From positions 372,001-436,000 of the forward strand of contig CANKZJ010000001.1 of the NCBI GenBank assembly GCA_947488605.1: 64,000 bases of DNA, given 5' to 3'. Source of the stretch: an uncultured Paracoccaceae bacterium (GTDB lineage: Bacteria > Pseudomonadota > Alphaproteobacteria > Rhodobacterales > Rhodobacteraceae). Below are positions 39,742 through 59,600 of the stretch, in pieces. The translations under genes and the position numbers were made by a program. Below the pieces are notes generated by a model. It made no database searches. It was not told where the DNA came from and worked only from the letters and a program-made list of their open reading frames with translations. Every line of letters begins with the position of its first letter. The first letter of the stretch is position 1.

Positions 39742-40572
39742 TCCTAGTTCTCCCACGGTCCGCGATCCGGTTTTCGGGACCATGTCGTACACATACTGCA
39801 CACGAATTAGGGCCGTCTAGCCCCCTAGGAGAGAAGACCCGCGAACGACGGTGAAAGGGTGGGTCTCTAGTCTGGGCAACCTTGTCCATCGCGCGCCTCG
39901 GTCGGGGCTACGCATCGGGGAAAGTCACAAAAACGGTGATGCTCGTGGAACATGTAGCGTGCGGAAAACAACGTTACCCTTTTGGTGCTGCGCCAGCAGC
40001 AATCCACTCCTCCGTCGGTCGCCGGGAATTCGACTCCAAGCCAATTGCAAATTCCAGAACTTCACGCAGGCAGCAGCGGATATTAACTCCGAGCCCACTG
40101 CAAAAGTGAATAAGTCTTGCTGCGTGCGCTCGCAATGCAGAGTCCTGACGCGCCGCATCGAAACCATCGCCGTACCGCAGAGGCGAATGCAGTCTTTCGA
40201 TGCGAAGCGCAAAGCAGGCGCCCATATGTGCGAGGACTGGCTACCTTCATAAGGTTCGGCATTTATTTGGAGACAACAAACTACACATTCAGATACTCGG
40301 CGAACGGTACCTGCTGCGCGCCATTTAAGACCTACCGAGCGTCGACCCTGGTTTACATGAGCAGCCAGTGTTCGCGTTGTCTTCGACGTCTGTATTGATG
40401 GGTCAGTGTTGAGGTGAAACACACATCACTCCAAAAAGACTCCCGTTCAGCTGCAAACAAATGCTCTGCCCAAAAGGCGGTTCTGGTTCGTTATTCGCAT
40501 CGGGTGGTTGCAAAAATAGCAATGGTTATCAAAGCCAGTACTGACCATGTTGGCAATGACGGGAGCGCACTG
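39742..40572. other. 831-base intergenic stretch without a supported gene
   Basis: Open frames exist on both strands but overlap each other and carry no motif, signal or ribosome-binding site. Near 39835-39882 AGACCC and GGGTCT could pair. The interior (about 39970-40250) has an unusual composition and conserved-looking patches on both strands, suggesting a decayed gene or dispersed repeat. The right part should hold the promoter of the nitrile hydratase-like operon. Confidence 0.55.
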
Positions 40573-40914
40573 ATGCAAGATGACAAAGGACCAAAGGGCT
40601 ACCACGACGTCGGGGGTGAACAGGCGGGTGAAATCCCGATGGTCGAATTGCCCTGGCTGCATTGGGAAAAGCAAGTTGAGGCTATTCGTGGCCTTCTTGG
40701 TGATGGGACGCGCCGGATCGTATCGCTTGATGAGGTGCGACGCGGTTTCGAAAGCTTTGGCGTGGAAAAATACAATTCCCTGTCTTTTTATAGACGCAGG
40801 CTCCAAGCCATGACTGATATCTTGATCGAAAAAGGCATCGTTTCGCAATCAGAGCTGGATGTCGCCATTGAGGCCGCGCAAGCCCGCTGGACTGACACTG
40901 ACACAAAGCCATGA
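40573..40914 (+). CDS. Nitrile hydratase/thiocyanate hydrolase-like beta subunit, N-terminal half
   Basis: 113 residues from MQDDKGPKGYHDVGG; GGGAG lies upstream of this ATG, and longer frames to 40414 lack similarity. GYHDVGG matches the G-x-HD-x-GG motif that opens nitrile hydratase beta subunits, and the helical part (LPWLHWEKQVEA, then FYRRRLQAMTDILIEKGIVSQSEL) matches their N-terminal domain. In thiocyanate hydrolase (scnBAC) the beta subunit is split in the same way. It overlaps the next gene as ATGA. No separate activator gene is seen. Confidence 0.75.
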   Translation: MQDDKGPKGYHDVGGEQAGEIPMVELPWLHWEKQVEAIRGLLGDGTRRIVSLDEVRRGFESFGVEKYNSLSFYRRRLQAMTDILIEKGIVSQSELDVAIEAAQARWTDTDTKP

Positions 40915-41213
40915 CGCGATTTTCTTCCGGCGACACTGTGCAGGTTATGGCGCTCGGCAAAACCGGACACGTCCGTATCCCCCACTATATTCGCCACCAG
41001 ATCGGGCGGATCGTCGACTACTGCGGCACCTATCTCAACCCAGAGGACTTGGCCGTTGGCAACACTTCTGGCCGTGCGGTTGATCTATACCGGGTGGCAT
41101 TTTCACAAGCACGGCTTTGGCCAAATGAGCCCGTGCCGCAACAAGATATGCTGGTCATTGAAATCTATGATCACTGGCTGACCCATGTAGAGGAAACCAC
41201 AGATGCCCCATGA
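40911..41213 (+). CDS. Nitrile hydratase/thiocyanate hydrolase-like beta subunit, C-terminal SH3 half
   Basis: 100 residues matching the C-terminal SH3-like domain of nitrile hydratase beta: FSSGDTVQVM, GHVRIPHYIRHQIGRIV and VDLYRVAFSQARLWP, ending with IEIYDHWLTH. The R-x-P-x-Y-x-R core and the LY-V-F segment contact the metal subunit in known structures. It overlaps both neighbours. With the preceding gene it makes a split beta subunit. Confidence 0.8.
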   Translation: MTRFSSGDTVQVMALGKTGHVRIPHYIRHQIGRIVDYCGTYLNPEDLAVGNTSGRAVDLYRVAFSQARLWPNEPVPQQDMLVIEIYDHWLTHVEETTDAP

Positions 41214-41820
41214 TCACGGTGAACACGAGGCGCTCGTGATCGAGGACGAAGCAGGCAATATCGAAGCTCAAATCATCGTTGATGCGCTGCAAGGCGTGCT
41301 GATCAACAAAGGCCTGCTAACTGCCCGTGAAGTGACCGCAGCGATAGCCAAACTCGAAAGCCCGGGACTGCATCTTGGCTCAAAAATCGTGGCAAAGGCA
41401 TGGACGGACCCCGCCTACCGTGCGCGACTATTGTCCGACGGCCGCGCGGCGGTGCAAGAACTAAACATTCCGGTGACTGAGGCGCGCATCATCGTCGTTG
41501 AGAACACAGCCTCGGTCCATAACTTGATCACCTGCACGCTCTGCTCTTGCTATCCAAGGTCCATTCTGGGGCAACCGCCATCGTGGTACATCTCAAAAGC
41601 CTACCGCGCACGCTCGGTCCGCGAACCGCGCCGCGTCCTTGCAGAGTTCGGTCTGGATTTGCCTGAAGATGTGCAACTCGTGGTGCACGACAGCAACGCC
41701 GACATGCGCTATCTGGTTTTGCCTGAACCACCGGCAGGTGTTGAATATCTCGCGCCATCAGAGATGGAAAAAATGATATCGCGGGATCACCTGATTGGCG
41801 TGGCCAGAGCCGTGAAATGA
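41203..41820 (+). CDS. Nitrile hydratase/thiocyanate hydrolase-like metal (alpha/gamma) subunit
   Basis: 205 residues. The claw motif CTLCSC (Cys111, Cys114, Ser115, Cys116) is the cobalt-type metal site, in which two cysteines become sulfinic and sulfenic acids. The downstream LGQPPSWY, YRARSVREPRRVLAEFG and the VHDSNADMRYLVLP segment are those of nitrile hydratase alpha. The residue after CSCYP is Arg instead of the usual Trp of nitrile hydratases. Nitrile hydration to amide is favoured by the coupled amidase gene; thiocyanate hydrolysis is the alternative. Confidence 0.87.
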   Translation: MPHDHGEHEALVIEDEAGNIEAQIIVDALQGVLINKGLLTAREVTAAIAKLESPGLHLGSKIVAKAWTDPAYRARLLSDGRAAVQELNIPVTEARIIVVENTASVHNLITCTLCSCYPRSILGQPPSWYISKAYRARSVREPRRVLAEFGLDLPEDVQLVVHDSNADMRYLVLPEPPAGVEYLAPSEMEKMISRDHLIGVARAVK

Positions 41821-43040
41821 CAGATCAAAGCTGCCAGGATTCCATTATCAAGGACATTTTGCAGTGGGACGGTCATATCCACGCCTTTGTTGAACTGAGC
41901 GAAACTGAAACGACCTTGCCTGATCCGGGTCAGCTGGGCGGCCTCACCGTCGGGATCAAAGACATCATCGATGTGAAAGGCTTGCCGACCCGCAACGGAA
42001 GCGACGCATGCCACGATGCGGTGCCTGCAACCGAGGATGCCCAAGTTGTTACCGCTTTACGCGCAGCAGGCGCACGCATTGTCGGAAAGACAACAACAAC
42101 GGAATTTGCATTCACGGATCCGACAGTTTGCCGTAACCCCCATGACCTGAGCCGCACACCTGGTGGATCCAGCAGCGGCTCTGGCGCCGCCGTCGCTGCA
42201 GGTGTGGTTGATATCGCCCTTGGCACGCAGACGGCAGGGTCGCTGTGCCGTCCGGCGGCCTATTGCGGTGTCGTCGGTTTCAAACCGACCTATGGGGTTT
42301 TGCCTACCCGCGGCGTGACCCCACTGGCCCCCAGTTTTGACAGCGTGGGCATTATCGCAGGTACCGTTACCTTGGCGCAAAAGGCATTTGACGCGATGGC
42401 GCCTTGCGATGGTGCGACGTCCCACGCGATGGCTCCCGCAACACTCTGCGGGCTTTGGGACAACGATGTCATCGTCAACGCAGACACCCGCGACGCACTC
42501 AATGACGCGGCAACAGTCCTTGCCGGCTTGGGCGTATGCGTGGCCGACAGCCCATTGATCGCCGATGTTGACCGCATAGTCGCGGCACACCGGGCTATCA
42601 TGCATTTTGAGGCCAGTGCGTTCCACGGCAGCATGCTCAACGACGCAAGGATCAGCCAACTGAAACCAAAATTCCGGAAAGCACTGGAAGCAGGAGCGGC
42701 CATCACACCGGCCGAGGCTGCCGAAGCCGCTGCTTTCCTCGCGCAGGCCAATCAAGACTTCTGGCAAAGCCTCGCAGACGTGGACATCGTTCTGACCCTG
42801 CCCGTGCCTGACGGTCCTCCGATGATCGATGGAACGACCGGATTTCAGGATTGGCTCACACCTTGGACGGTTTTTGGCGGACCATTGATCTGTTTGCCGT
42901 GGGGGGCCGACAGTTTGGGGCGGCCCAGGTCGGTCATGCTGGCCGCGCATCCGGGCAAAGATGCCGAGCTTTTGGTGACGGCGGCAACGTTGGAACGGCA
43001 TTGCCCGCCTTTATCCAAACCGCAACTGCCGGACGCTTAA
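41817..43040 (+). CDS. Amidase-signature hydrolase
   Basis: 407 residues of the amidase-signature family with the Ser-cisSer-Lys triad: Lys48 in VGIKDIIDV, the glycine/serine loop GGSSSGSGAA, and the nucleophile serine in GTQTAGSLCRPAA. It would hydrolyse the amide produced by the hydratase to acid plus ammonia. Coupled to the metal subunit gene by ATGA. It abuts the convergent RidA-like gene with no spacing. AtzE (a related amidase) needs the small AtzG partner, which is absent here. Confidence 0.87.
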   Translation: MTDQSCQDSIIKDILQWDGHIHAFVELSETETTLPDPGQLGGLTVGIKDIIDVKGLPTRNGSDACHDAVPATEDAQVVTALRAAGARIVGKTTTTEFAFTDPTVCRNPHDLSRTPGGSSSGSGAAVAAGVVDIALGTQTAGSLCRPAAYCGVVGFKPTYGVLPTRGVTPLAPSFDSVGIIAGTVTLAQKAFDAMAPCDGATSHAMAPATLCGLWDNDVIVNADTRDALNDAATVLAGLGVCVADSPLIADVDRIVAAHRAIMHFEASAFHGSMLNDARISQLKPKFRKALEAGAAITPAEAAEAAAFLAQANQDFWQSLADVDIVLTLPVPDGPPMIDGTTGFQDWLTPWTVFGGPLICLPWGADSLGRPRSVMLAAHPGKDAELLVTAATLERHCPPLSKPQLPDA

Positions 43041-43514
43041 TCAGTCCTTCAAGCGCACAATCGCATCCACTTCTACAGAAGCATTGCCGGGCAGTCCCAA
43101 TACCCCAACTGCCGTGCGCGCATGCCAACCTTGTTGCCCAAACAAAGCAATGAACAGTTCGGTCGCACCATTAATCACTGCGGGGCTTTGGGGAAAACCT
43201 GACAGGCAATTCACGAACCCACCAAGCCTGAGAACGACATCAACCCGATCTAGATCACCGTCACAAGCTTCACGCAGACGGTAGACAAGGTTCAATGCGC
43301 AAATCTGCGCCGCCACGCGCGCATCCTCAATGGCTTCGGGCGTGTCCATAACGGGGCCCATGTGGGTGACTTTGCCGTCCCATTCGCAGATTTGGCCCGA
43401 TAGATAGACAATTGTCCCATCTTTGCGAAATTGCAAAAACTGTCCGCGTGGCGTCCAATCGGGCGGCAATTCAAGACCCAGCGCCGCAAGGCGTTGTTCA
43501 ACCTGACCGGTCAT
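43041..43514 (-). CDS. RidA/YjgF-family protein
   Basis: 157 residues from MTGQVEQRLAAL, overlapping the allophanate hydrolase stop as ATGA. It matches the longer RidA-like group: VYLSGQICEWDGKV, then an ARVAAQICALNLVYRL helix and WHARTAVGVLGLPGNASVEVDAIV, where the arginine (HARTAVG) binds substrate carboxylate in RidA enzymes. RidA hydrolyses reactive enamine/imine intermediates; members often occur in pyrimidine and triazine-related N-catabolic operons. Confidence 0.85.
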   Translation of the reverse strand: MTGQVEQRLAALGLELPPDWTPRGQFLQFRKDGTIVYLSGQICEWDGKVTHMGPVMDTPEAIEDARVAAQICALNLVYRLREACDGDLDRVDVVLRLGGFVNCLSGFPQSPAVINGATELFIALFGQQGWHARTAVGVLGLPGNASVEVDAIVRLKD

Positions 43515-45316
43515 GCGGGCACCGCCTGTTGCGCCAAAAAGGCGCGCCAATCACCGATTTCTGTGATGTCCGTCGCTCCTTTAACGCCCGTGGCTTCGCA
43601 TAAGAATCCCTTGACCAAAGAGCCGTCAGACAACTCGACAGTCCCAATGCTCAAAGGTGCCGGAATGCCTGCGATGAAGGATCCAAACGCTGTCTTTGGC
43701 AAGGACCACACCTCCAATGCGATGGCCCCCTTGTCGGGACCCTCCGAGCGCAACAAACCGGGCCGTGCGGGTGGCCCGCCGGCCAGCGCATAGAATTTAT
43801 AGTCAGCCGACGTCTTTGCCCTGCGCACAAATGTGGCACCCAGATCAGTGAGCTGCCAATTAAGCGGCAGGTCCGCCATATGCGCCCCGCAGACGGCTAA
43901 TTCGATCCGATCTGATGGCGCATTATCTAACGCAGGTGGCGCGGGCACCAGGTGCGACGTCGCCCCCATATTGCGCGTGCAGTTCGCTTCAAAACCACGC
44001 GCAATCGCAGCGACGGCGGCATCTTTGCCAGCCCCGGCCAGCAAGGTCACACTGCCCGGCCTGCCATCGCTGCGTGGCGCGGTCGGCACAGCAATACCGC
44101 ACATATCCAGCAAATTCACAAAATTGGTGTAGGTGCCGTTGTTCGAGTTTGGCGTGACCGGGTCGGCCTCGAGATCAGCGACTGAATAGAACGTTGGGAT
44201 CGTTGGTACGCACAACATATCAAGGTGTTTAAGCATCGGCTCTGCCGCACGTCGCAGTTCTGCCAACCGGTAGAACCCACGAAACGCATCCGCCGCGGAC
44301 ATGCTTTCAGCATGGGTGATAATCTTGCGTGTAACGGGGTGAATTGCATCCCGGTCACTGGCGAGCAGGTCTTCGATCACGGTATAGCGTTCGGCCACCC
44401 AAGCCCCTTCGTAAAGCATATCAGCAATTGCATAGAGCGGTTTGAAGTCGACGTATTCAATCGTTCCGCCCATTTCAGCCAATCGTGCGATATCCCGATC
44501 AAACGATGCTTGTTGCACGTCATCACCGAAGAATTCAATTGATGCGGCATCTGGCACACCAACCCGCAAAGGCAAAGGTTGGGCGGTCAGCGGCTCGTGG
44601 ACCAACGGTTTAGAATAAGCATCCGACGGGTCAAACCCGCGGGCTGCTGCAAAAGCCGCATAAGCATCGTCAACGGTCAGCGCAAAGATCGATATTGTAT
44701 CAAGCGTGCGGCAGGCGGGAACGACACCGCTGGCAGACAACGCACCCAAGGTCGGCTTCAGCCCCACAATGTTGTTGAGCGCTGCAGGCACCCTCCCCGA
44801 TCCGGCTGTATCCGTGCCCAAGGAGAACGTCACAATTCCATGGCCAACAATCACGCCAGACCCGCCGGAGGACCCACCGGGCACAATCTCGGGGTCCACG
44901 GCATTCAACGGCGCGCCATATGGCGTACGCACGCCCACAAGACCCGTGGCAAACTGATCAAGATTGGTTTTGCCGATCATGATTGCACCAGCGGCACGCA
45001 GATTGGCGATCACAAAGGCATCAGCGTCAGGCGTGTAGGCATAGGCAGGACACCCTGCTGTCGTCTCAATCCCTGCGACATCAATGTTATCTTTGGCGGC
45101 ATATGGAATACCCCAAAGCGGCAAATTCGGATCAAACGCACCAAGGGCCGCAGCTTCAGCCTTCAGGCTTTCGCGGTCGCACAGATGTATGAAAATGCCC
45201 GGATCATTGACCGCATTCAGGCGCGTAAAAATTTCATCGATAACATCAGACGGACTCGCGCCCGCCGCATATGCTTCATGAAGGGCGCTAAGCGTGAAAG
45301 GCAGATTGCTAAGCAT
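43511..45316 (-). CDS. atzF: Allophanate hydrolase
   Basis: 601 residues in two parts. The N-terminal amidase domain has Lys75 (AAKDNID), the loop GGSSGGSG (Ser149/150) and nucleophile Ser173 (GTDTAGSGR). The C-terminal domain of about 150 residues (ELAVCGAHM, YKFYALAG, LEVWSLP, FGSFIAGIPAPLSIGTVEL) is specific to allophanate hydrolase and separates it from other amidases. It converts allophanate to ammonia and CO2, the last step of biuret, cyanuric acid and urea-amidolyase pathways. It lies in the ABC importer operon. Confidence 0.93.
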   Translation of the reverse strand: MLSNLPFTLSALHEAYAAGASPSDVIDEIFTRLNAVNDPGIFIHLCDRESLKAEAAALGAFDPNLPLWGIPYAAKDNIDVAGIETTAGCPAYAYTPDADAFVIANLRAAGAIMIGKTNLDQFATGLVGVRTPYGAPLNAVDPEIVPGGSSGGSGVIVGHGIVTFSLGTDTAGSGRVPAALNNIVGLKPTLGALSASGVVPACRTLDTISIFALTVDDAYAAFAAARGFDPSDAYSKPLVHEPLTAQPLPLRVGVPDAASIEFFGDDVQQASFDRDIARLAEMGGTIEYVDFKPLYAIADMLYEGAWVAERYTVIEDLLASDRDAIHPVTRKIITHAESMSAADAFRGFYRLAELRRAAEPMLKHLDMLCVPTIPTFYSVADLEADPVTPNSNNGTYTNFVNLLDMCGIAVPTAPRSDGRPGSVTLLAGAGKDAAVAAIARGFEANCTRNMGATSHLVPAPPALDNAPSDRIELAVCGAHMADLPLNWQLTDLGATFVRRAKTSADYKFYALAGGPPARPGLLRSEGPDKGAIALEVWSLPKTAFGSFIAGIPAPLSIGTVELSDGSLVKGFLCEATGVKGATDITEIGDWRAFLAQQAVPA

Positions 45317-45334
45317 GGGATATTCTCCGGAGAT

Positions 45335-46975
45335 TTAGGTGACTTGGCGGCGCTCTGGTGGTTTGGGCGCCGCCGCAAGAAGGGTTTTGGTGTAGTCGCT
45401 TTGCGGGTTGGTCATCACGTCTTTTGCCGCACCTTGCTCAACGATTTCGCCGTCTTTCATAACAATCACATGATCACACAGCAGACGCACAACATGCAGA
45501 TCGTGGCTCACAAACAGATAACTCAGACCAAGTTTTGCCCGCAGATCGACCAATAGGTTCAAGACAACCGCTTGGATCGACACATCAAGCGCAGCCGTTG
45601 GTTCATCAAGGATCAAAAATTTTGGCTCCAGCGCCACGGCGCGCGCGATGCCTACGCGGGCTTTTTGGCCACCGGACAGCTGATGCGGAAACCGGTCCAA
45701 TAGGGATAGAGGCAAACCCACCAAAGCGGCCAATTCTTCAATACGTACGGTCAGCATTGCACCCCGCATCCCACCCAAGCGCCGCAACGGTTCAGCGATG
45801 GTTTGGCGTGCTGTATGGCGGGGATTGAGGCTGTCCGTGGCATCCTGAAACACCATTTGAATATCAGCGCGCCTGCGATCCTTTGTGAAACTACGGGCCG
45901 GCACACGGGCGATGTCGTCGCCATCAAAGATGACTTCTCCACTCGTGGCATCCAGCAAACGGACCAGTATTTCAGACGTTGTGGATTTGCCACATCCACT
46001 CTCCCCCACCAGACCCACACATTGGCCTTGGTTGATCGTGAAAGAAATGCCTTTAACCGCGTGCACCGGGCCAGATTTCCCGGCATATGTCTTGACCAGA
46101 TTACGGACTTCCAGCAACGGCTCATCGCTGACCTTCGGGTTCAACTCCTCGCCACGCTCTTGCTTTGGCAGCAAACTGCGCACGCTTTCGCCCGCGCGCG
46201 GCGTGGCATCCACCAGTTTGCGGCTATAGGGGTGATGCGGGTTGCTAAAAATCTGAACGGGATCACCTTGTTCGACAATCACGCCGTCTTTCATAACCAA
46301 AATCCGGTCGCAATATTGGGCGGCCAACCCAAGGTCATGGGTGATCAAGATACTGCTCATGTCGCGTTCGCGGATCAGGTCACGCACCAAATCCATAACC
46401 GCTTTCTGGGTCGTGATATCCAGCCCCGTAGTCGGCTCATCGGCGATCAGCAGACGGGGATCACAAGCAAGGGCAATCGCGCAAACGATGCGTTGGCACA
46501 TGCCCCCTGACAGCTCAAACGGATAGGCATTGTAGCGCGCCTCTGCATCGTTGATCTTGACGGCCTCAAGGGCTGCAATCGCTTTTTCGCGGGCATCATA
46601 ACGGGTTGCACGCGCATGATGGCGCAATACGTCTTCGATTTGATGGCCCACTTTGCGGATCGGATTGAGGGCCGCGCGCGGGTTTTGAAAGATCATCGAG
46701 ATTTCGCGGCCCCGGATATCACGCATATCGACTTCGGCTGATCGGCGCAGATCAATACCGGAATATGTGGCCTCGCCCGCTTTGATCGTGCCACCGGCAT
46801 CAAGAATGCGCATCAAGGCATAAGATGTGACAGATTTGCCCGATCCACTTTCCCCAACGATCCCAAGGATTTCACCCTTGGACACCTCAAAACTGATACC
46901 CCGCACGGCGTCAACTTCGCCCCGGCGGGTTTGAAACGCGACCGCAAGGTCAGTGACTGTCAGCATTGCACTCAT
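45335..46975 (-). CDS. Oligopeptide-type ABC importer, fused double ATPase
   Basis: 546 residues with two complete ABC domains in tandem, as in YejF/GsiA. Walker A sites are GESGSGKSV (41-49) and GESGCGKST in the second half; the signature motifs are LSGGM and LSGGQ. The Opp-type C-terminal peptide motif after each domain (NPHHPYSRKL; NPQSDYTKTL) is present. It powers the importer made with the two permeases upstream. Overlaps the permease gene by four bases. Confidence 0.92.
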   Translation of the reverse strand: MSAMLTVTDLAVAFQTRRGEVDAVRGISFEVSKGEILGIVGESGSGKSVTSYALMRILDAGGTIKAGEATYSGIDLRRSAEVDMRDIRGREISMIFQNPRAALNPIRKVGHQIEDVLRHHARATRYDAREKAIAALEAVKINDAEARYNAYPFELSGGMCQRIVCAIALACDPRLLIADEPTTGLDITTQKAVMDLVRDLIRERDMSSILITHDLGLAAQYCDRILVMKDGVIVEQGDPVQIFSNPHHPYSRKLVDATPRAGESVRSLLPKQERGEELNPKVSDEPLLEVRNLVKTYAGKSGPVHAVKGISFTINQGQCVGLVGESGCGKSTTSEILVRLLDATSGEVIFDGDDIARVPARSFTKDRRRADIQMVFQDATDSLNPRHTARQTIAEPLRRLGGMRGAMLTVRIEELAALVGLPLSLLDRFPHQLSGGQKARVGIARAVALEPKFLILDEPTAALDVSIQAVVLNLLVDLRAKLGLSYLFVSHDLHVVRLLCDHVIVMKDGEIVEQGAAKDVMTNPQSDYTKTLLAAAPKPPERRQVT

Positions 46976-47850
46976 GTCCGTTTACGCGGATCGACGATGT
47001 CGCGCAGACCGTCCCCCAAAAGGTTGAATGTAAAGACAGCAATCATCAGCCATAAGCCGGGGAACACGGCCAACCACCATTCACCTGAGACAATGAAATT
47101 CGCACCCTCGGCGACCATGATCCCCCACTCTGCGGTAGGTGGGCTAACGCCCAAGCCGATGAATGAGAGACCCGCCGCATTTAAGATCGCCCAGCCCAGA
47201 TTAAGCGAGACTTGCACCATCATTGGCGGCAAGGCGTTTGGGAAGATGTGAAATGCCAGCACCCGGATATCGGAGTTTCCTGCAAGCTTGGCCGCACGGG
47301 CAAAGCCAGCGTCGCGACGAATGTTCACCTCGGCGCGGACAAGCCGTGCATAAAACGGCATGTTGATGATCGCCGTGGCATAGATGATGTTTTCAATCGT
47401 GTTCCCAAGGGCGGCCACAATCCCCATCGCCAAAACAAACAATGGAAACGCCATGATCGTATCGAGAAAGCGGTTGAGGATGATATCGGGCCAGCCACCC
47501 CAATAGCCCGCGATACAGCCTAAGATCGACCCGACTACAAAAGATAATGCGACAGCGGCCACAGAAATTGACAGGTCCAACCGTGTGGCAACGATGACCC
47601 GGCTAAACACGTCGCGCCCCACATTATCCGTGCCAAACCAATGGTCCCATGAGGGCGGTTGCAAGGCATTGGTCGCATTGGTGGCCAACGGATCATAGGG
47701 TACCAACGACGGGCCAAAGATCGCAGAGAATATCAGCAACCCGAACATGCCAAACGCAATCATCGTGACCGGGTTTGCACGCAAGACGTAAAAGATATGA
47801 TCGAACTTACCCTGCGTCTTGACCACAGGTTTCGGTAATACATCCGTCAT
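46972..47850 (-). CDS. ABC importer permease, DppC-like
   Basis: 292 residues with six membrane helices and a long N-terminal segment. The EAA loop (EVNIRRDAGFARAAKLAGNSD) contacts the ATPase. GLGVSPPTAEWG near the C terminus is typical of DppC. Overlaps the DppB-like gene by ATGA. Confidence 0.91.
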   Translation of the reverse strand: MTDVLPKPVVKTQGKFDHIFYVLRANPVTMIAFGMFGLLIFSAIFGPSLVPYDPLATNATNALQPPSWDHWFGTDNVGRDVFSRVIVATRLDLSISVAAVALSFVVGSILGCIAGYWGGWPDIILNRFLDTIMAFPLFVLAMGIVAALGNTIENIIYATAIINMPFYARLVRAEVNIRRDAGFARAAKLAGNSDIRVLAFHIFPNALPPMMVQVSLNLGWAILNAAGLSFIGLGVSPPTAEWGIMVAEGANFIVSGEWWLAVFPGLWLMIAVFTFNLLGDGLRDIVDPRKRT

Positions 47851-48881
47851 TTCGATGAAAATCCGATCCTTGGGTCAATGGCCGTGTAAAGCAGATCAAT
47901 CACCAGATTGAGCGCCACAAACAAAAGCGCCATGGCCAACACAAACCCCTGCACCGCAGCATAATCCGACACCACCAAAGCATCGACGGCGTAAGACCCA
48001 ATGCCAGGCCAGGCAAAGACCTTCTCAACCAGCACATTTGCGCCAAGGGCAAAGGAAAACACCATGCCAAGGGTCGTGACGACAGGCAGCAAAGCATTGC
48101 GAAAGGCATAGCGGAAAAGAACGGTGCGGCTCGACAGCCCCACAGCACGGGCGGTGCGGATGAAATCTGATGACAGCGCTGTCAGCATCGACGCACGTGT
48201 CATGCGCGCGACAGGTGCCAATGTGAAAAGGGCCAATGTCGTGGCGGGGAGGAACAATTGTTTCGCCGCACCACGCCATGTTTCCCAATCGCCCATCAAG
48301 GCCGCATCAATCAAATAAAAGCCGGTCACATGGTCTGGATCAAGATAGATGAAATCCAGACGCCCCAACGGTGAAGGTGCAACCCCCAGTAAATAATAGA
48401 AGATGTAAATCAACAAAATGCCCGTGAAAAAAGTGGGCAGTGACACGCCAGCGGTCACGACGACGCGGCAAAGATGATCCACCCAAGTTCCCGGACGTGT
48501 CGCCGCGAGCACGCCAAGTGGTACAGCGATAGCGATGGCCAATAGCAGCGCCGTTAGCGTCAGTTCCAAAGAGGCTGGCAGGCGCTTGGCCAAATCCTCG
48601 GCGACGGACCTGCCACTTGAAAGTGACTGGCCGAGGTCACCTTGCAGCAAGTCGCCCACATATATGAAGAATTGCTGCGTCAAAGGCTTATCCAAACCCA
48701 TAGCGACGCGGGTTTGCTCAATGGATTCGGCATCTGCCGTGACCCCCGCAAAATAGACAGCCGGATCGCCGGGCAGCGCACGGGTCAACAGGAAGCTGAT
48801 AATCACGACACCAACAACAACCGGTATTGATTGGGCTACGCGCAGCACAACTGCGCGTAGCCTTGGTGAGGACGTCAGCAT
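47847..48881 (-). CDS. ABC importer permease, DppB-like
   Basis: 344 residues. The N-terminal helix is followed by the DppB-type conserved RALPGDPAVYFAG and DLLQGDLGQSL, six membrane segments and the EAA loop SDFIRTARAVGLS. It starts three bases after the binding-protein gene. It forms the channel with the DppC-like subunit. Confidence 0.91.
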   Translation of the reverse strand: MLTSSPRLRAVVLRVAQSIPVVVGVVIISFLLTRALPGDPAVYFAGVTADAESIEQTRVAMGLDKPLTQQFFIYVGDLLQGDLGQSLSSGRSVAEDLAKRLPASLELTLTALLLAIAIAVPLGVLAATRPGTWVDHLCRVVVTAGVSLPTFFTGILLIYIFYYLLGVAPSPLGRLDFIYLDPDHVTGFYLIDAALMGDWETWRGAAKQLFLPATTLALFTLAPVARMTRASMLTALSSDFIRTARAVGLSSRTVLFRYAFRNALLPVVTTLGMVFSFALGANVLVEKVFAWPGIGSYAVDALVVSDYAAVQGFVLAMALLFVALNLVIDLLYTAIDPRIGFSSK

Positions 48882-48884
48882 TCG

Positions 48885-50492
48885 CTAGACAGACTTCAGC
48901 GGACGGATGTCCAACTGGCGGTGGAACCAGAACTCGTACCCTTCGGCACCGTTCGCCGCGACATTCAGCGCAGGCTGGTACAGTGGGATACGTGGCAGTT
49001 CATCCAACACAATCTCAAACATGCGTTTGATCTTGGGTGCATACTCTGGATCGTCCATCGGCATATGCAGGGTCGCGTTCGTCAGTTCTTCGATTTCCTC
49101 GTTTCGGTAGTTGGAGGAGTTGAACAGGTGACCATCTTGATACGCCCAGAAGAAGTAGTAATCAGGTGTGTCCAGCCAGCCACCGAAGGTTTCAAGGTGC
49201 AGCGGAAGACGCTTCTCAACCAACGAGGCTGTGCGCCAATTCGCACCTGGGATCTTGTCGATCTCGACAGTGATGCCAATTTTGCCCAGAGCTTCCTGTA
49301 TCAAGATCGCTGTTGGTTCCATCCACGACGCAAGGTCGAGGCTGATGGAAAGCGGTACATCGAAACCGTCCGCATAGCCTGATTTAGCCATGTGCTCTTT
49401 CGCCTTATCAATATCCGTAAAATACTGCGACTTGCGCGGCCATGCGATGTCGTTGATTTCTTCTTCACCACCCCAAAGCGGCAAACCGCGACCGTAGGCG
49501 GCAGCCTGAAAGATATCCTCGTAAGGAATTGCATAGGCGAGTGCTTTGCGCACATCTGAGTCTTGGAACGGTTCGAATGCAAAATTCGGGCACAGGCAGA
49601 ACATGCAGTTCACTACCGGCGTTGAGAAGACGTCAAGTGTCTCGGCAAGTTCGGCCGCGTCTTTGTCAGGAATATCAAATGCTATTTGTACATCGCCGCG
49701 TTCAACAAGTGCACGGCGTGTGGCAGGGCTAGGTACTTCACGCACGACAACACGCTTGAGCGCAGGCAGCGGACCACCGACCCAATCATCGTTGCGCTCG
49801 TAAACAAGCTGCTCACCGGGGGTCCAACGCGCAACCTTATAGGCGCCTGATCCAGCGGCGGTTGTATGTAAATACTCCAGCGCCCAAGGATCATCCTCTG
49901 TCGCATTTGCCAAAGCCTCGACCGAGTTCATGATGTATGGCACCGGCACGGCCAGATCAGGGATCGAAAGCTTTGACGGGAAGTCCAGCTTGATCACGAA
50001 TGTCTCGTCATCGACGGCTTCAAACTGGTCCGGGCGTTCAAATCCACCAGCCTTCATCTGCACACTTGGAAAACCACCAACCGACACGGCACGATCAAAA
50101 GACCACTTTACGTCGGCAGCCGTCACCTTGCGGCCATCCCAGAATTTCGCGTCAGACTTCAGTTTGAATGTCAGTGTCAGACCATCTTCCGACTCGGTCC
50201 AGCTTTCAGCAAGCTCGGGCTCAATCACATTGTAATCAAATGAGAACCCGCCGCCGATCGCTTCTTTGGTACCAAACGACACCAGACGATCATAACAGTT
50301 TACCCCGACTTGATAGGATGCGCGGCTGGTGCCCGAGCGGTGCAGATCCAGACTATTGACTGTCTGGCCGCTGACCACGACCAAAGTATCAGAACCTTGC
50401 GCGGCAGCAGGCATTGCGCGCAGGAATGGCAGGACAGAGGCACCGGCAGCACCCATCTTCAGGAAATTACGTCTTGTTGTCGTATCACTCAT
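48885..50492 (-). CDS. Tat-exported ABC substrate-binding protein (SBP family 5)
   Basis: 535 residues from MSDTTTRRNFLKMG; GAGAGAAAAT precedes this ATG. A twin-arginine signal (RRNFLK, hydrophobic stretch, AMPAAAQ cleavage region) directs export by Tat. The mature part has the SBP_bac_5 fold with the family motif LAESWTESEDGLTLTFKLKSD and KFWDGRKVTAADVKWSFDRA (key part DGRKVTAADV). It probably captures the nitrogen compound degraded by the cluster. It is the first gene of the operon leading to atzF and the RidA-like gene, divergent from the LysR gene. Confidence 0.91.
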   Translation of the reverse strand: MSDTTTRRNFLKMGAAGASVLPFLRAMPAAAQGSDTLVVVSGQTVNSLDLHRSGTSRASYQVGVNCYDRLVSFGTKEAIGGGFSFDYNVIEPELAESWTESEDGLTLTFKLKSDAKFWDGRKVTAADVKWSFDRAVSVGGFPSVQMKAGGFERPDQFEAVDDETFVIKLDFPSKLSIPDLAVPVPYIMNSVEALANATEDDPWALEYLHTTAAGSGAYKVARWTPGEQLVYERNDDWVGGPLPALKRVVVREVPSPATRRALVERGDVQIAFDIPDKDAAELAETLDVFSTPVVNCMFCLCPNFAFEPFQDSDVRKALAYAIPYEDIFQAAAYGRGLPLWGGEEEINDIAWPRKSQYFTDIDKAKEHMAKSGYADGFDVPLSISLDLASWMEPTAILIQEALGKIGITVEIDKIPGANWRTASLVEKRLPLHLETFGGWLDTPDYYFFWAYQDGHLFNSSNYRNEEIEELTNATLHMPMDDPEYAPKIKRMFEIVLDELPRIPLYQPALNVAANGAEGYEFWFHRQLDIRPLKSV

Positions 50493-50570
50493 ATTTTCTC
50501 TCTCACTGTTGGCAATGGCAGTTGGATTCGGCCTTACAGACATGATGCGATGGATTACCGTTCACATCTA

Positions 50571-50585
50571 ATGCTATAAAATCAT
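50571..50585. promoter_or_regulatory. Candidate LysR-type T-N11-A site
   Basis: ATGCTATAAAATCAT has ATG/CAT arms and the T-N11-A spacing of LysR-type operators. It lies in the 138-base divergent region, 45 bases before the lysR-like start. Confidence 0.35.
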
Positions 50586-50630
50586 CTAGCTGCTGCGTTT
50601 TTCGCAACAGTTAGGAAAAAGGCATGCGAT

Positions 50631-51533
50631 ATGAAATACTTAAAGACATTCGAGCTGATCGAGGCCGTCGTGCGTGCCGGATCAATTCGCAAAGCCGCCG
50701 AGGACAGCAATCTGACGGCATCAGCCTTGAACAGGCGCATCCAAAACTTTGAACAAGAATTTGGCTGGCCAATCTTTGAGCGGCTACCACGCGGGATGCG
50801 CCTAAACCCCGCAGGAGAGCTGTTAATGCAGCACATCGGCCTGCAGCGCACCGATCTGGCACGTGTGCAATCCCAAGTGGCAGACCTGTCGGGCGAACGT
50901 CGCGGGCATGTCTCCATCGCCTGTTCGCAAGCGTTATTGCCGTATTTCATGCCCGAACAAATCGCCATCTACCGCGCCGCACACCCCGGCGTGACGTTCA
51001 CGGTCAACGTCCGTGACCGCGCTCAGGCAGAGCGTGATTTAGCATCTTACAGCAGTGATTTAGCGCTCGTTTTTGAACCTGTACACTTGGTCGACTTTGA
51101 AGTGCTCTATGCATTACCACAAGCGGTTCACGCTGTATTCAAGCACGACAGTCCCTTGGCCGACAAACCGGTATTGCGGCTACGAGAATGCTTGAACCAC
51201 AAACTGGTTTTGCCCTCGGCAATCTACGGCGTGCGCAATCTGCTCGAACTGGCCGCCAGCCGTAGCGGGCGCACGCTGTCACCTGCCGTTGAAACGGAAT
51301 CGTTCGACTTGATCCGGCACTACGTGACACAAGAAGACGCCGTCGGATTTCAGATACCAATCGGGCTGAACGTCTCTGAACAAGACACCATCGGCCACAG
51401 GCCGATCTCTGAGAAAGATGTGCCCTTTGGGCGGTTGTTGCTGGGTCAAATGAAAGGACGCGCCCTACCCGTGGCATCCGCCAAGTTTAGCCAGCAACTT
51501 CTCACAGCGCTCTCAAATCTCTCAACCGTCTAG
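50631..51533 (+). CDS. LysR-family transcriptional regulator
   Basis: 300 residues. The N-terminal winged HTH (FELIEAVVRAGSIRKAAEDSNLTASALNRRIQNFE; key part RKAAEDSNLTASAL) is followed by a periplasmic-binding-like effector domain. The HTH recognises the divergent promoter shared with the importer operon. It probably senses an intermediate of the pathway and controls the transporter-atzF operon, and perhaps biuH, which lies downstream on the same strand. Confidence 0.9.
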   Translation: MKYLKTFELIEAVVRAGSIRKAAEDSNLTASALNRRIQNFEQEFGWPIFERLPRGMRLNPAGELLMQHIGLQRTDLARVQSQVADLSGERRGHVSIACSQALLPYFMPEQIAIYRAAHPGVTFTVNVRDRAQAERDLASYSSDLALVFEPVHLVDFEVLYALPQAVHAVFKHDSPLADKPVLRLRECLNHKLVLPSAIYGVRNLLELAASRSGRTLSPAVETESFDLIRHYVTQEDAVGFQIPIGLNVSEQDTIGHRPISEKDVPFGRLLLGQMKGRALPVASAKFSQQLLTALSNLSTV

Positions 51534-51588
51534 CTGATTTGCACAGCGCCGCTGCTTTATCACCACCCAAGCTGAATGCTGCATTTTT

Positions 51589-51605
51589 TGCACCGTTCTG
51601 GTGCA
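51589..51605. promoter_or_regulatory. Perfect NtrC-binding site upstream of biuH
   Basis: TGCACC-GTTCT-GGTGCA equals the NtrC consensus TGCACC-N5-GGTGCA with no mismatch. Its centre is about 104 bases before the biuH start. Induction under nitrogen limitation is inferred. No -24/-12 element was found between it and the gene; in Rhodobacter, NtrC activates housekeeping-sigma promoters. Confidence 0.7.
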
Positions 51606-51700
51606 TTCTTAGCAGAAGACGGAAGCGTTCAAGATCGTACATGCTCCACCCCAACTGTCTTGAGCTCTGATGTGAGCCATATGAGACCAAAGGAGCAGTG

Positions 51701-52393
51701 ATGTCGCAGCAGATAGCCAAAACCATCAAGGCCGATCCCTATCCATGGCCTTATAACGGCGATCTACGCTCCGAAAACACGGCCCTGATCATTATCGACA
51801 TGCAGACGGACTTCTGCGGCGTTGGCGGTTATGTCGATAAGATGGGGTATGACCTCTCCATGACCCAAGCCCCTATCGCGCCAATCGGTCGGGTGTTGTC
51901 CATGATGCGAACCAAGGGCTACCATATTATTCATACCCGCGAAGGGCATCGCCCCGACCTCGCTGATCTGCCCGCCAACAAGCGGTGGCGCAGCCGACAG
52001 ATAGGCGCAGGCATTGGTGATCCCGGCCCTTGCGGCAAAATCCTGGTGCGGGGTGAACCAGGCTGGGACATCATTCCAGAGCTTTATCCGATCGCAGGCG
52101 AACCAATCATCGACAAGCCCGGCAAGGGTAGCTTTTACGCCACCGATCTCGAAATGATCCTGCGCACACGCGGGATCGAGAACCTCATCCTGACTGGCAT
52201 CACCACAGACGTCTGCGTGTCAACAACCATGCGAGAGGCCAATGACCGTGGGTTTGAATGTCTTGTGCTGGCGGACTGCTGCGGTGCGACCGACAAGGGC
52301 AACCACGATGCAGCGCTTAGCATGGTGATGATGCAAGGCGGGGTGTTTGGCGCAGTAAGCAACAGCGATACCCTGCTGGCCGAACTGTCATGA
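51701..52393 (+). CDS. biuH: Biuret hydrolase (isochorismatase-like family)
   Basis: 230 residues from [25 protein letters not shown] lies five bases upstream. The Asp-Lys-Cys triad is Asp33 (IDMQTDF), Lys139 ([10 protein letters not shown]) and Cys172 (TTDVCVSTT), with Gln212 (MMQGG). This spacing is a constant three-residue shift from Asp36/Lys142/Cys175/Gln215 reported for Rhizobium BiuH, and long stretches such as [17 protein letters not shown] look the same (from memory). It converts biuret to allophanate and ammonia, and the product is the substrate of AtzF encoded nearby. Confidence 0.88.
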
Positions 52394-53067
52394 ACATTAT
52401 GGCTGAAATCCCTTCAGCATTGCCCTTCGCTTTCGCCTTCGATCCGGCCACTACAGCCTTGATTGTGATCGACATGCAGCGCGACTTTATCGAACCGGGC
52501 GGCTTTGGCGCGTCATTGGGCAACGACGTATCACTGTTGCAAGCCATCGTCCCGACGACCGCACGGCTGATCAAGACATGCCGCGACCACGGTCTGCCGA
52601 TCATCCACACCCGCGAGTGCCACAAGCCTGATTTGTCTGACCTCCCGCCCGCCAAACGAAACCGCGGCAATCCCAGCTTGCTGATCGGCGATCCCGGCCC
52701 GATGGGGCGCATCCTGATCGCTGGTGAACCGGGCGCTGATATCATTCCCGAGCTCGCGCCTCTTGATACGGAACTGGTGGTCGACAAACCCGGCAAGGGT
52801 GCGTTCTACACCACGCAGCTGGGCGAACATCTGGCGCAATTGGGAACCAAAACTCTCATCCTGGCGGGCGTCACCACCGAAGTTTGCGTGCAAACTACCA
52901 TGCGCGAAGCCAATGACCGCGGCTTTGATTGCTTACTGATCGAGGACGCAACTGAAAGCTACTTCCCAGCTTTCAAAACGGCCACGCTTGACATGATCCG
53001 CGCACAGGGCGCCATCGTTGGATGGACAGCAACCTCTGCCGCATTCGCAGAGGCATTGCATGACTAA
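52390..53067 (+). CDS. Second isochorismatase-like hydrolase (triuret/guanylurea/biuret-type amidase)
   Basis: 225 residues, a clear paralogue of the preceding BiuH and coupled to it by ATGA. The triad is Asp28 (IDMQRDF), Lys133 (VDKPGKGAF) and Cys166 (TTEVCVQTT). The N terminus is shorter and lacks the YPWPYNG segment, and the region equivalent to the BiuH MMQGGVFG reads RAQGAIVGW. The changed substrate pocket suggests a related ureide such as triuret or guanylurea, both known substrates of this superfamily. Which one cannot be told from sequence. Confidence 0.85.
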
Positions 53068-53392
53068 GCCCCACGTCCTGAGAAATCTAATCGCCAACTG
53101 GCGCGACCTTGCGTTTGAGCCGTTCCGCGACGGCGTCGACATACACCACATCCAACAAGGTAGCCCTGCGCTGGCGATATTGCGTTATGCCCCGGGAGCA
53201 AGGGTGCCAAAGCACCTTCACACAGGGTTAGAAACAATCCTTGTCCTGGACGGCGAACAGTCCGACGAACACGGTAGCTATCAGACAGGCTCCCTCGTTC
53301 TAAACCCAGAAGGCTCTTCGCATTCGGTTTGGTCCGACAATGGCTGCGCGGTATTGATCCAATGGGAACGACCGATCGAGATCCTTGGGTAA
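53060..53392 (+). CDS. Cupin-domain protein of the biuret cluster
   Basis: 110 residues from [14 protein letters not shown], overlapping the hydrolase stop by eight bases. The single cupin domain of the ChrR-like type shows [21 protein letters not shown] (key residues H-x-H...E) and [10 protein letters not shown] with the fourth ligand His. A role in sensing or metal binding is possible, and such cupins often end N- or C-catabolic operons. No enzyme activity is predicted with confidence. Confidence 0.82.
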
Positions 53393-53815: not shown

Positions 53816-54964
53816 CTACGGCACAACAGAGATTTTTTGTGCCTCCCACATTTCAGGTGGTTCCAGCTTCCGCACCAGATGATCAATGACTGCATCAGGT
53901 ACCGCGTCAGGCCGATTTCTGTTTTGTCGACGCAATTGATCGGGATTGACTTCGACGTAGACGATTTCAACCCGCGCACCGTAGTCCCGCAATAGCCTTA
54001 GTACCTTTGATCTGTTTTGCCGTGTTACGTTCGTCGCGTTCCAGACAAAATCGGTACCAGCCCGCAGAAACTCTCTGGCCCTTTCATGGGCTGCCTGGAT
54101 GACCTGACCTTGGTTGTCTGTGGCGGATACACCCAATTCATCGCGGATCAGATCGAGGCTGACCATAGGATGATCAGGACGATGTTGGGCCGCCCAAGTG
54201 TCTTTGCCTACGCCGGGCAAACCAGACATCACCGTAACGGTGCATTTGAAGTCTTCGTGTGCTTGATAGTGCGGATCACGGTCTTCAAGGTCGAAGTAGG
54301 CAACGCGGCTTTCGTCGTTGGCGAAGGCGAACGGGCCGTGCAAGCACCCGGCATCTTGGAACGTCATCGCAGCAAGGCTGACGCTTTCTAAGATCACCTG
54401 TTGATCCTGACATACCCGACCCAGCGCATCTGCTTTGGCATGCATGCACAAGTCATCGGGCCTGCACCGCCATGATGTTTCAATCGCAAGCCGCGCAGGA
54501 TCAGGCCGTTCGATCAGCCAAAACGGAAGTTGGTGGTGCGCGATGATCCCACATAAAGCCTCTCGCCATGCAAAGGGTGATCCCGCATGCCACAGCAACT
54601 CCCGTGCGATAGACGCCCCGACCCGTGAGTGTCCACGGGACGAGATACGTCCATCGTCCTCATGCTTCGTCACAGGAGGTTTGCCAACATCGTGCAGTAC
54701 CGCCGCCCAGAACATGTAGGTCCGATCATCATGTTGCAGGTTTTGCCAGTCGGGATCAGCGACCAATGCCTCAACCACCAGCCGCGTATGTGTCCCCACA
54801 TCTCCCTCTGCATGGTGGATCGGGTCCTGCGGGCAAGCGTCCAGTGTCGCCAGTTCGGACCAAAGCGGCCAGATCGCAGTCCAATCGGTCCGCCAAAGCG
54901 GGCCAATTGGAACGAGGAACAACAGGTGGTCATGAGTGACGGTGGGTTTCATGTGTTTACGCAT
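53816..54964 (-). CDS. HD-Pnk: 2',3'-phosphoesterase HD domain fused to polynucleotide kinase
   Basis: 382 residues if started at the second of two adjacent ATGs (54964; 54967 is equally possible) after GGAAGGGG. The HD domain has AVLHDVGKP (His91-Asp92) and further metal histidines in HSRVGAS and IIAHHQLPFW. The C-terminal kinase has the P-loop GLPGVGKDT near residue 250 and VWNATNVTRQNRS as the lid region. Runella HD-Pnk, of the same layout, removes 2',3'-cyclic phosphate ends and phosphorylates 5'-OH ends. It overlaps the ligase gene by eight bases. Confidence 0.87.
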   Translation of the reverse strand: MRKHMKPTVTHDHLLFLVPIGPLWRTDWTAIWPLWSELATLDACPQDPIHHAEGDVGTHTRLVVEALVADPDWQNLQHDDRTYMFWAAVLHDVGKPPVTKHEDDGRISSRGHSRVGASIARELLWHAGSPFAWREALCGIIAHHQLPFWLIERPDPARLAIETSWRCRPDDLCMHAKADALGRVCQDQQVILESVSLAAMTFQDAGCLHGPFAFANDESRVAYFDLEDRDPHYQAHEDFKCTVTVMSGLPGVGKDTWAAQHRPDHPMVSLDLIRDELGVSATDNQGQVIQAAHERAREFLRAGTDFVWNATNVTRQNRSKVLRLLRDYGARVEIVYVEVNPDQLRRQNRNRPDAVPDAVIDHLVRKLEPPEMWEAQKISVVP

Positions 54965-55769
54965 CATAAGCCCCTTCCACACCCAGTAATGGCGCAAAAA
55001 TATCGACCCCATCCGCCAAGGTATTCGGCAGGATCGGGCGGTCGTGCCAGTGACCATCAGCCGCTTCGATGGCTTGCAGGAAGTCGGCCCGCACAAACTT
55101 GAACCGATCCAACACGTGATCGGAATCCTCTTGTTTTAAGTAAAGACCCTCGGCCAGATCGCTGTCTTCGGTTTGCTGATCCACCATATCAGGGCGGCTG
55201 CCAGACCGTTCTGCTGCTACGGCCAAAGCATCGCGCCAACCTATTGACTTGTAGGGCGTCGGGCGGGTCATGCCATTAAGATGATCGACGGATGATACGT
55301 CACCCTCATGCACCACAGGGACCGGCATGATTGGCAAACCCGCTAGCAACGACCGACGGGCAACAGTGCTGAGGAAGGTGCCATTGTCCCGATCCAGCAC
55401 GTCAAACTCCATGAAGTAATGGGGTAACCTGTCATAGAACACCGTGTGCTTGGCATACATCCATTCGCCATACATGACGAAGCGGTGACCCAGCACAGGA
55501 TGCAAGACATGGGCATGGGCCGCTGCCCACGTCTTAAACAGGGCAAAGTGGCGCTCACGGCCACCGCCCGTCAGGTAATGCCCACGGCTTTGCAGCATCA
55601 GGTTGCCATTCGCGTCGAAGGACACGGCCGAGTTGGCCCCGTCAAGTTTCTCTTCCACGATCAGACGTTCGCCTTTGAGGTCTTTGATTGGTTTGTCATC
55701 CGCCATATCGCCAACTTGAAGGCGCGAACCCTCAATGTGCCGCGTACGCGGATATTTGTAGATAGTCAT
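54957..55769 (-). CDS. ATP-dependent RNA ligase (Rnl-type)
   Basis: 270 residues from MTIYKYPRTRHIEGSR. The nucleotidyl lysine is Lys41 in EEKLDGANSAV (motif I), LQSRGHYL lies nearby, FVMYGEWMYAKHTV and HYFMEFDVLD are motifs III/IIIa, EGLYLKQED motif IV and DRFKFVRADF motif V. It adenylates a 5'-phosphate end and seals it to a 3'-OH. With the downstream HD-Pnk it forms a heal-and-seal pair that can rejoin RNAs cut by toxin-like nucleases. Confidence 0.88.
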   Translation of the reverse strand: MTIYKYPRTRHIEGSRLQVGDMADDKPIKDLKGERLIVEEKLDGANSAVSFDANGNLMLQSRGHYLTGGGRERHFALFKTWAAAHAHVLHPVLGHRFVMYGEWMYAKHTVFYDRLPHYFMEFDVLDRDNGTFLSTVARRSLLAGLPIMPVPVVHEGDVSSVDHLNGMTRPTPYKSIGWRDALAVAAERSGSRPDMVDQQTEDSDLAEGLYLKQEDSDHVLDRFKFVRADFLQAIEAADGHWHDRPILPNTLADGVDIFAPLLGVEGAYDA

Positions 55770-56031
55770 AACTGTCTCACGATGTATCGATTGGTCACAC
55801 AAAAACACCCGACATGAATTGTCAGGGCGTTGGTTGAAATATGTGTGCAGCGACTACATCGGACTTCCGTGGGGTTCGGGGTGGAAACAAGATGATTTGA
55901 ATAACCTGCCATCCTATACCGATCAAGTCATCCGTGATGTGGTCTTTGGTTGTGACGCAACCATGCAACGGCTTTACATCGCACCCTGTTCAGGTGAGTT
56001 TCTTGCGACGTCAAAGGACATGATACAGACG

Positions 56032-56382
56032 ATGAATATTCTCTTCATTTGCAGCATGAACAAATGGCGCAGCCCCACGGGTGAGGCGATTTTTCGGCGC
56101 CATGATGGGGTGAACACCCGCTCAGCTGGGACCAGCCGCAAGGCACGTTGGCAAGTGAACGTCACAGACATCCGTTGGGCTGACCTGATCTGCGTGATGG
56201 AGGAAAAGCACCTGTCGCGACTGCGGGCCGACTTTCGGAGCGAGGTGAAACACAAAGCAATCCACGTCCTCGACATCCCCGACGACTACCAGTTCATGGA
56301 CCCTGAGTTGGTTGATCTGATCAGTGATGCAGTGATGCCAAGGATAGAAAGCCGAAATACAATCAGGTTGATCGATCCATGA
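56032..56382 (+). CDS. Low-molecular-weight protein-tyrosine-phosphatase-like protein
   Basis: 116 residues from MNILFICSMNKWRSP; a longer in-frame extension to 55819 lacks similarity. The P-loop C-x5-R is Cys7-SMNKW-Arg13-Ser, and a late Asp (DIPDDYQFMDP) may be the general acid. It is shorter than typical LMW phosphatases. Proteins of this type recur near RNA-repair and defence genes; whether it acts on protein, RNA ends or nucleotides is unknown. It diverges from the RNA ligase gene across 262 bases. Confidence 0.8.
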   Translation: MNILFICSMNKWRSPTGEAIFRRHDGVNTRSAGTSRKARWQVNVTDIRWADLICVMEEKHLSRLRADFRSEVKHKAIHVLDIPDDYQFMDPELVDLISDAVMPRIESRNTIRLIDP

Positions 56383-56541
56383 TGGCAAACTTTCGGGGTC
56401 GTAGGTGGTAGGGTCGGTCACAAAACAAAGACTGCCACAACTACAAACCCCACAACCAAAGTGAACAAGATTATTGAGGATGCCTTCCAATAGCCTCCTT
56501 TTGAACTTGCACTGACTTGCTATCCGTCGTCATTTCCAACC

Positions 56542-59584: not shown

Positions 59585-59600
59585 CGACTTGAAAGCCCCC

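Follow-up and report, generated by a model that had tools for sequence, protein, structure and literature searches.

Does a nitrile hydratase-like enzyme feed a bacterial pathway for biuret nitrogen? The question is raised by a gene cluster at positions 40573–53392 of a 64,000-nucleotide stretch of DNA (the window) from an uncultured Paracoccaceae bacterium (assembly GCA_947488605.1, contig CANKZJ010000001.1). The cluster consists of plus-strand genes for the two beta halves and the alpha subunit of a hydratase (betaN, betaC, alpha) and for an amidase, minus-strand ridA, atzF and an Opp-type importer, and plus-strand lysR, biuH, trtA and cupin genes. All genes named here by a first-pass annotation were recovered by profile and sequence comparison (Table 1). 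Several alphaproteobacterial groups carry a Co-type nitrile hydratase (NHase)-like enzyme together with biuret/triuret genes, in one case within the same run of genes. This combination of hydratase and biuret/triuret genes suggests a route, as yet undescribed, by which a cyano compound is made available as a nitrogen source. The cluster quite possibly serves to scavenge nitrogen from biuret and triuret and has been extended by an entry enzyme, for which the hydration of cyanourea to biuret would be the simplest fit.

Association of the hydratase with biuret genes

The first-pass annotation had joined the hydratase to BiuH and AtzF from one locus. Beyond the window the association is found in three different linked arrangements: an island in Rhodobacteraceae, genome G404 and genome G112. 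Rhodobacteraceae is used here in the broad sense, and some records are labelled Paracoccaceae or Roseobacteraceae in the tree. All 12 Rhodobacteraceae loci with an orthologous alpha (window included) show betaN-betaC-alpha-amidase and ridA-atzF in the same order, and thus the block is not a chance arrangement. biuH is present in the same island in 10 of these loci, namely the window, seven followed through their flanks and two judged by coordinates; the contigs of the remaining two end first.

In the window, adjacent genes of the cluster overlap or almost touch, with the surroundings of lysR as the exception; the alpha and amidase genes overlap by 4 bases. The ratio of nonsynonymous to synonymous substitution rates (dN/dS) against relatives is 0.04–0.13 in 13 of 19 comparisons, dS being inestimable in the other six and above 1 in all those used. 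The hydratase genes are conserved, with dN/dS of 0.04–0.10 in the six of nine comparisons that yield a value.

G404, which belongs to another family, carries an alpha 72% identical to that of the window in a one-strand run, tauC-tauA-tauB-betaN-betaC-alpha-biuH-atzF. The gaps are 38 bases between alpha and biuH and 51 bases between biuH and atzF. An NMT1-type importer is situated upstream and the run is divergent from a LysR gene, which groups with those of biuH loci. G404 combines the same enzymes with another kind of transport. Elsewhere in this locus (L097, 8757–16372) a cupin-like open reading frame (ORF), a Liv-type ATP-binding cassette (ABC) importer and, past atzF on the opposite strand, another amidase were seen by eye.

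In G112 (L174, 5190–7416) remnants of betaN, betaC and alpha are found between lysR and cupin-trtA-nupA-biuH. There is a stop in betaN, a broken frame in betaC and an internal deletion in alpha. The decayed hydratase in an otherwise intact-looking biuret/triuret cluster is probably a recent loss.

Two further genomes, G643 and the metagenome-assembled genome (MAG) G734, have BiuH on a contig other than that of the hydratase. The hydratase operon of G643 is divergent from a LysR gene that groups with the LysRs of biuH loci, and no such LysR is found in the 20 kb around the G643 biuH. The LysRs of G643 and G404 share 51.5% and 53.6% identity, respectively, with that of the window, as against 26% for unrelated LysRs with a match. 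Their placing inside the group of biuH-locus LysRs has moderate support only.

A search of other genomes for co-occurrence, suggested in the first-pass annotation, bears out the association. BiuH is above cut-off in 13 of 15 hydratase genomes versus 30 of 385 genomes in the class. The base rates are 29/295 in the family and 4/56 in the genus, where the four BiuH genomes are the same four that carry the hydratase. The two hydratase genomes without BiuH above cut-off are G729, a 1.9-Mb assembly with contig ends, and Hansschlegelia. AtzF is above cut-off in all 15 and in G112 as well (16/16; the background frequency of AtzF was not taken). AmiF, a formamidase, is above cut-off in 12 of the 15. 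The genome of locus L045 stands outside the BiuH and AmiF counts.

Fisher tests for BiuH enrichment give 0.0009 (family), 0.0004 (class), 3e-6 (genus) and 0.0055 (class without the window's genome), in genomes that are related and of which many share one island. Among the four lineages outside Rhodobacteraceae, BiuH is present in G404, G643 and G734 and not in G735 (Hansschlegelia); the chance of at least three is 0.0018 at the class rate. The test was prompted by what the window itself shows, and the lineages come from different searches; the figure is therefore support and not proof.

Identity of the hydratase

The alpha, betaN and betaC domains each score above the curated Pfam cut-offs, and betaN and betaC correspond to the two halves of an NHase beta subunit in the PDB comparison. 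The claw motif CTLCSC is present in all three aligned alphas and in the aligned NHase entries of the PDB. In the PDB, alpha and betaC are related mostly to NHases, with Co-type enzymes (EC 4.2.1.84) at the top. The NCBIfam NHase alpha model TIGR01323 is not reached (218 bits, cut-off 249.85), and thus alpha is a relative within the NHase family rather than a certified NHase by the NCBIfam standard. The window enzyme differs from Co-type NHase in its two-gene beta and its separate clade, where alpha position 110 is nearly always Thr. No separate activator gene was recognised beside the window hydratase.

Thiocyanate hydrolase (SCNase) has three separate subunits, which correspond to betaN, betaC and alpha, and the PDB comparison of alpha and betaC also brings up SCNase gamma and alpha chains. 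The similarity is distant, however. Alpha gives 204.8 bits with the best NHase versus 132.4 with SCNase gamma, and 164.5 bits on the SCNase gamma model TIGR03887, far below its cut-off of 291.45. A thiocyanate-hydrolase-like enzyme is scarcely credible here.

The split beta, which the first-pass annotation had taken as an oddity, turned out to be ordinary in the alphaproteobacteria tested, and was rejected as a special feature. Two separate genes encode it in all 15 other loci of the clade, in 30 of 34 loci of the family and in 20 of 22 of the class, one half not being found in the remaining six; none is fused among the 65 testable loci.

Of the 73 alphas placed in a tree, 16 group in a distinct clade (support 100/97). 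This clade consists of the window, 11 more Rhodobacteraceae, G404, G643, a Hyphomicrobiales MAG (L052) and Hansschlegelia zhihuaiae (L053). The nearest alpha outside the clade, L007, is on a very long branch. Position 110, beside the claw, is Thr in 15 of the 16 clade members and Val in all 57 others. For the tree the best match per locus was kept and identical proteins were entered once; L001–L003 and alpha matches shorter than 150 residues, hence also the decayed G112 copy, were set aside. The same hydratase is found in 3 of 55 other genomes of the window's genus. No clade member is present among the best 30 of 146 plasmid records with a match; one record with 60–80% identity lies outside those 30.

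The window's genome carries another split NHase (contig 2 of G000, L037) with the same betaN-betaC-alpha order and the same CTLCSC motif. Its alpha is about 45% identical to that of the window and groups with other Rhodobacteraceae NHases in the tree. The 15-kb stretch of L037 shows no match to the amidase or ureide query genes.

The biuret/triuret cluster

BiuH of the window agrees at 12 of 12 checked residues, eight of them numbered in PMC7948467 and four placed by offset. The adjacent gene had been described in the first-pass annotation as a second ureide hydrolase. It is a ureide hydrolase, and can be specified further as the triuret hydrolase TrtA. Residues D24, F29, F35, N41, E72, K129, K132, A134, V157, T158, E160, C162, Y187, Q202 and I205, which PMC7948467 gives as catalytic, binding or discriminating, are kept in 15 of 15 positions. 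The same paper identifies 6XJ4 and 6XJE as TrtA.

The first-pass annotation had also proposed hydration of dicyandiamide to guanylurea. The reaction is chemically analogous to that of cyanourea, and guanylurea hydrolases belong to the same superfamily as the window hydrolases (PMC12625717). However, the second hydrolase keeps all six residues chosen in PMC7948467 to discriminate TrtA from BiuH, and TrtA is described in that paper as ultraspecific for triuret. No guanylurea hydrolase was identified in the cluster, in a comparison made without a GuuH reference sequence. Because of the TrtA residues the dicyandiamide route was rejected; it is very unlikely, and this arm of the earlier proposal is unsupported.

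The surroundings of BiuH were compared in 57 loci, using flanks of 7.8 to 19.9 kb, some of which stop at a contig end. The loci are those above cut-off in the family and class searches, apart from genomes in which a linked hydratase was already known; G734, G730 and G733 were added. Among them bmpA is found in 52, nupB in 53, nupC in 54, nupA in 55, trtA in 48, cupin in 36, atzF in 34, lysR in 30 and amiF in 30. A stricter count, with identity limits set by us for each gene, used the 52 hydratase-free loci that remain after L174, L203, L220, L221 and L222 are left out; it gives trtA in 44, cupin and atzF in 33 each, lysR in 27 and amiF in 25. From these counts lysR-bmpA-nupBC-(amiF)-biuH-nupA-trtA-cupin plus atzF is a common alphaproteobacterial biuret/triuret cluster, and similar clusters are described in PMC12625717.

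The window island is without bmpA, nupB, nupC, amiF and nupA. All five are inside the island of the seven relatives followed through their flanks (G171, G259, G297, G304, G342, G730 and G733), bmpA of G259 being seen only at its start (in L054). Thus the window carries a reduced version of the island. The window's TrtA, BiuH and AtzF resemble the trtA-biuH-atzF cluster of the Herbaspirillum sp. BH-1 type (PMC7948467), and the bmpA-nupABC genes of the window's relatives resemble the clusters described in PMC12625717. The window differs from the Herbaspirillum type in adding a three-gene NHase-family hydratase, an amidase, a RidA-like protein and an Opp importer.

The frequency of AmiF in biuH clusters is an observation in its own right. 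In L036 (1526–2539) AmiF scores 576.1 bits against a cut-off of 406. Our literature search found nothing joining formamidase and biuret hydrolase.

The presence of AmiF also bears on a cyanide route, in which the hydratase would convert HCN to formamide and AmiF would convert formamide to formate and ammonia. amiF is near the hydratase in both Hyphomicrobiales loci, with one binding-protein gene between, and the 12 of 15 hydratase genomes with AmiF agree with such a route. However, no AmiF is above cut-off in the window's genome or in G404, and cyanide usually inhibits NHases. The 25 amiF genes among the 52 hydratase-free loci show that amiF is part of the ureide cluster in any case. The idea of formamidase as a partner proper to the hydratase is weakened, and the cyanide route is quite unlikely.

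Of the 52 loci, 44 carry trtA, and 33 of these 44 also have a cupin of the type encoded at 53060–53392 in the window. This ChrR-type cupin may act either as the missing carboxybiuret decarboxylase or as a sensor. TrtB, the decarboxylase described for the triuret pathway, was not identified in the window, in a comparison made without a TrtB reference sequence. Decarboxylation of carboxybiuret is reported as spontaneous in vitro (PMC7948467).

Proposed route and its alternatives

By comparison with close relatives, TrtA would convert triuret to carboxybiuret, which would lose CO2 to give biuret. BiuH would convert biuret to allophanate, and AtzF would convert allophanate to ammonia and CO2. We infer that the three-subunit Co-type hydratase adds water to the cyano group of a small compound and that the resulting amide is passed to the ureide route, entering at BiuH (or TrtA). 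The candidate substrate cyanourea (NC-NH-CO-NH2) would give biuret by hydration in one step, and it is the simplest fit because its hydration yields exactly the BiuH substrate. The LysR protein may switch on the hydratase and ureide genes together, and the Opp-type or NMT1-type importers may bring in the substrate. The hydratase is a credible candidate for an entry step to the biuret route. The amidase, the RidA-like protein and the cupin have no step assigned in it.

Hydration of an N-cyano group has a precedent, since NHases are reported to hydrate the N-cyanoimine of acetamiprid to an N-carbamoylimine (PMC11573777). A wider proposal is that a clade of three-subunit cobalt hydratases is specialised on N-cyano ureides (cyanourea, perhaps N-cyanobiuret) and opens a route from cyano-ureide to biuret/triuret, allophanate and ammonia, assembled in several gene orders across the alphaproteobacteria. 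This is possible, though doubtful as a whole.

The amidase gene raises the alternative of an ordinary nitrile hydratase/amidase pair, converting R-CN to the amide and then to acid and ammonia, with a carbon nitrile as substrate; only regulation and the purpose of nitrogen scavenging would be shared with the biuret genes. The amidase gene directly follows alpha in all 12 Rhodobacteraceae loci, the nearest solved relative of the amidase is malonamidase E2 (183.2 bits), and alpha is most like Co-type NHases. However, the amidase is missing beside the hydratase in G404, G643, L052 and L053 and thus is no fixed hydratase partner. In G404 biuH and atzF come after alpha instead, and the pair does not predict the co-occurrence with BiuH. 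Such a pair is somewhat unlikely.

Hansschlegelia, which has no BiuH above cut-off, raises the alternative that the hydratase makes urea from cyanamide. Cyanamide is a small substrate, and in G404 and L053 the hydratase has NMT1-family binding proteins next to it, which suit small solutes. However, this leaves the position of biuH right after alpha in G404 unexplained. Moreover, no urea-carboxylase-like or urease ORF is apparent by eye, among ORFs of at least 240 amino acids (aa), near the Hansschlegelia atzF, which an Opp set precedes. The formation of urea from cyanamide is distinctly improbable. Separately, it was observed by eye that this atzF with its Opp set (L223, 3581–9847) is near radical-SAM-like and nitrilase-like proteins, a gene set that we take to resemble a Nit1 nitrilase cluster.

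Several observations weigh against the hydratase as an entry step from cyanourea to biuret. In Hansschlegelia (G735, L053) the hydratase and AtzF are present in a genome without BiuH above cut-off, and the hydratase has amiF, an unrelated LysR gene and the gene of an NMT1-type binding protein as neighbours. In G643, selD follows alpha and biuH is on another contig. Of the 53 biuH loci for which no linked hydratase was known, 52 are free of it in the examined stretch and one (G112) shows the decayed copy; thus the hydratase is an optional extra and the pathway needs none. The amidase directly after alpha in Rhodobacteraceae would provide an amide-to-acid step that is superfluous for a biuret product. 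No biological source of cyanourea was found in a literature search on the word alone.

The first-pass annotation had named, as evidence against its proposal, a hydratase block found elsewhere without biuH/atzF and with an unrelated partner. Such cases are found in part: Hansschlegelia, with its hydratase near amiF, has AtzF and no BiuH above cut-off, and selD comes after the hydratase genes in G643. However, AmiF does not count as unrelated, because of its presence in the hydratase-free biuH loci counted above.

What is known is the biuret/triuret cluster; what is unusual is the recurrent NHase-family hydratase as a putative entry module. The statement of the first-pass annotation that no described pathway unites a hydratase with BiuH and AtzF holds for the open-licence literature, in which no such paper was found, nor one that describes an NHase among clustered biuret or triuret genes; subscription papers were outside the search. 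PMC12625717 lists both nitrile hydratase and biuret hydrolase, each on its own.

If cyanourea enters the route through the hydratase, such a dedicated enzyme would form a third way into the pathway, and would suggest that N-cyano compounds do serve marine and soil bacteria as a source of nitrogen. Such compounds arise, in part by our reasoning, from cyanamide fertiliser chemistry and from urea/cyanate condensation. The NHase family would then acquire a natural function in the use of ureide nitrogen. The finding would amount to more than a variant of a known cluster if the substrate of the hydratase is an N-cyano ureide.

Features of the window cluster

The genes of the cluster are given in Table 1. 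The betaN start is placed at the ATG at 40573 from the orthologue comparison, which gives a length matching that of the Ascidiaceihabitans relative.

Table 1. Genes of the cluster, with positions in the window and the matches on which the assignments rest
Feature	Coordinates	Strand	Evidence
betaN, NHase beta N-terminal half, 113 aa	40573–40914	+	NHase_beta_N 45.3 bits (cut-off 21.5) on the longer ORF 40414–40914
betaC, NHase beta C-terminal half, 100 aa	40911–41213	+	NHase_beta_C 66.3 bits (cut-off 27.7); matches residues 129–216 of a Co-type NHase beta in the PDB
alpha subunit, claw motif CTLCSC, 205 aa	41203–41820	+	NHase_alpha 229.9 bits (cut-off 27.2)
Amidase-signature hydrolase	41817–43040	+	Pfam Amidase; nearest solved relative malonamidase E2
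RidA-like (YjgF/L-PSP) protein	43041–43550	-	PF14588 (YjgF_endoribonc) 50.1 bits, above cut-off
AtzF, allophanate hydrolase	43511–45316	-	TIGR02713 765.6 bits (cut-off 511.05); PDB 4gyr 539.5 bits; Amidase and AH_C domains
Opp-type ABC importer, fused ATPases (DF)	45335–46975	-	Pfam
Opp-type permease (C)	46972–47850	-	Pfam
Opp-type permease (B)	47847–48881	-	Pfam
Family-5 solute-binding protein (A)	48885–50543	-	SBP_bac_5 250.7 bits
LysR regulator, type seen in biuH loci	50631–51533	+	Profile match, LysR comparison
BiuH, biuret hydrolase	51698–52393	+	NF050097 419.7 bits (cut-off 370)
TrtA, triuret hydrolase	52390–53067	+	PDB matches 6xix 289.7, 6xj4/6xje 285.1 versus BiuH 6xjm 214.1 bits
ChrR-type cupin	53060–53392	+	PF12973 65.2 bits

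Neighbouring genes

To the right of the cluster, positions 53816–60899 of the window encode a protein with HD and AAA_33 domains, an RNA ligase, an RF-1-domain protein overlapping an RtcB ligase, and a reverse transcriptase. The RF-1-domain protein is presumably PrfH-like. The region looks like an RNA-repair island beside a reverse transcriptase, and is possibly retron-like.

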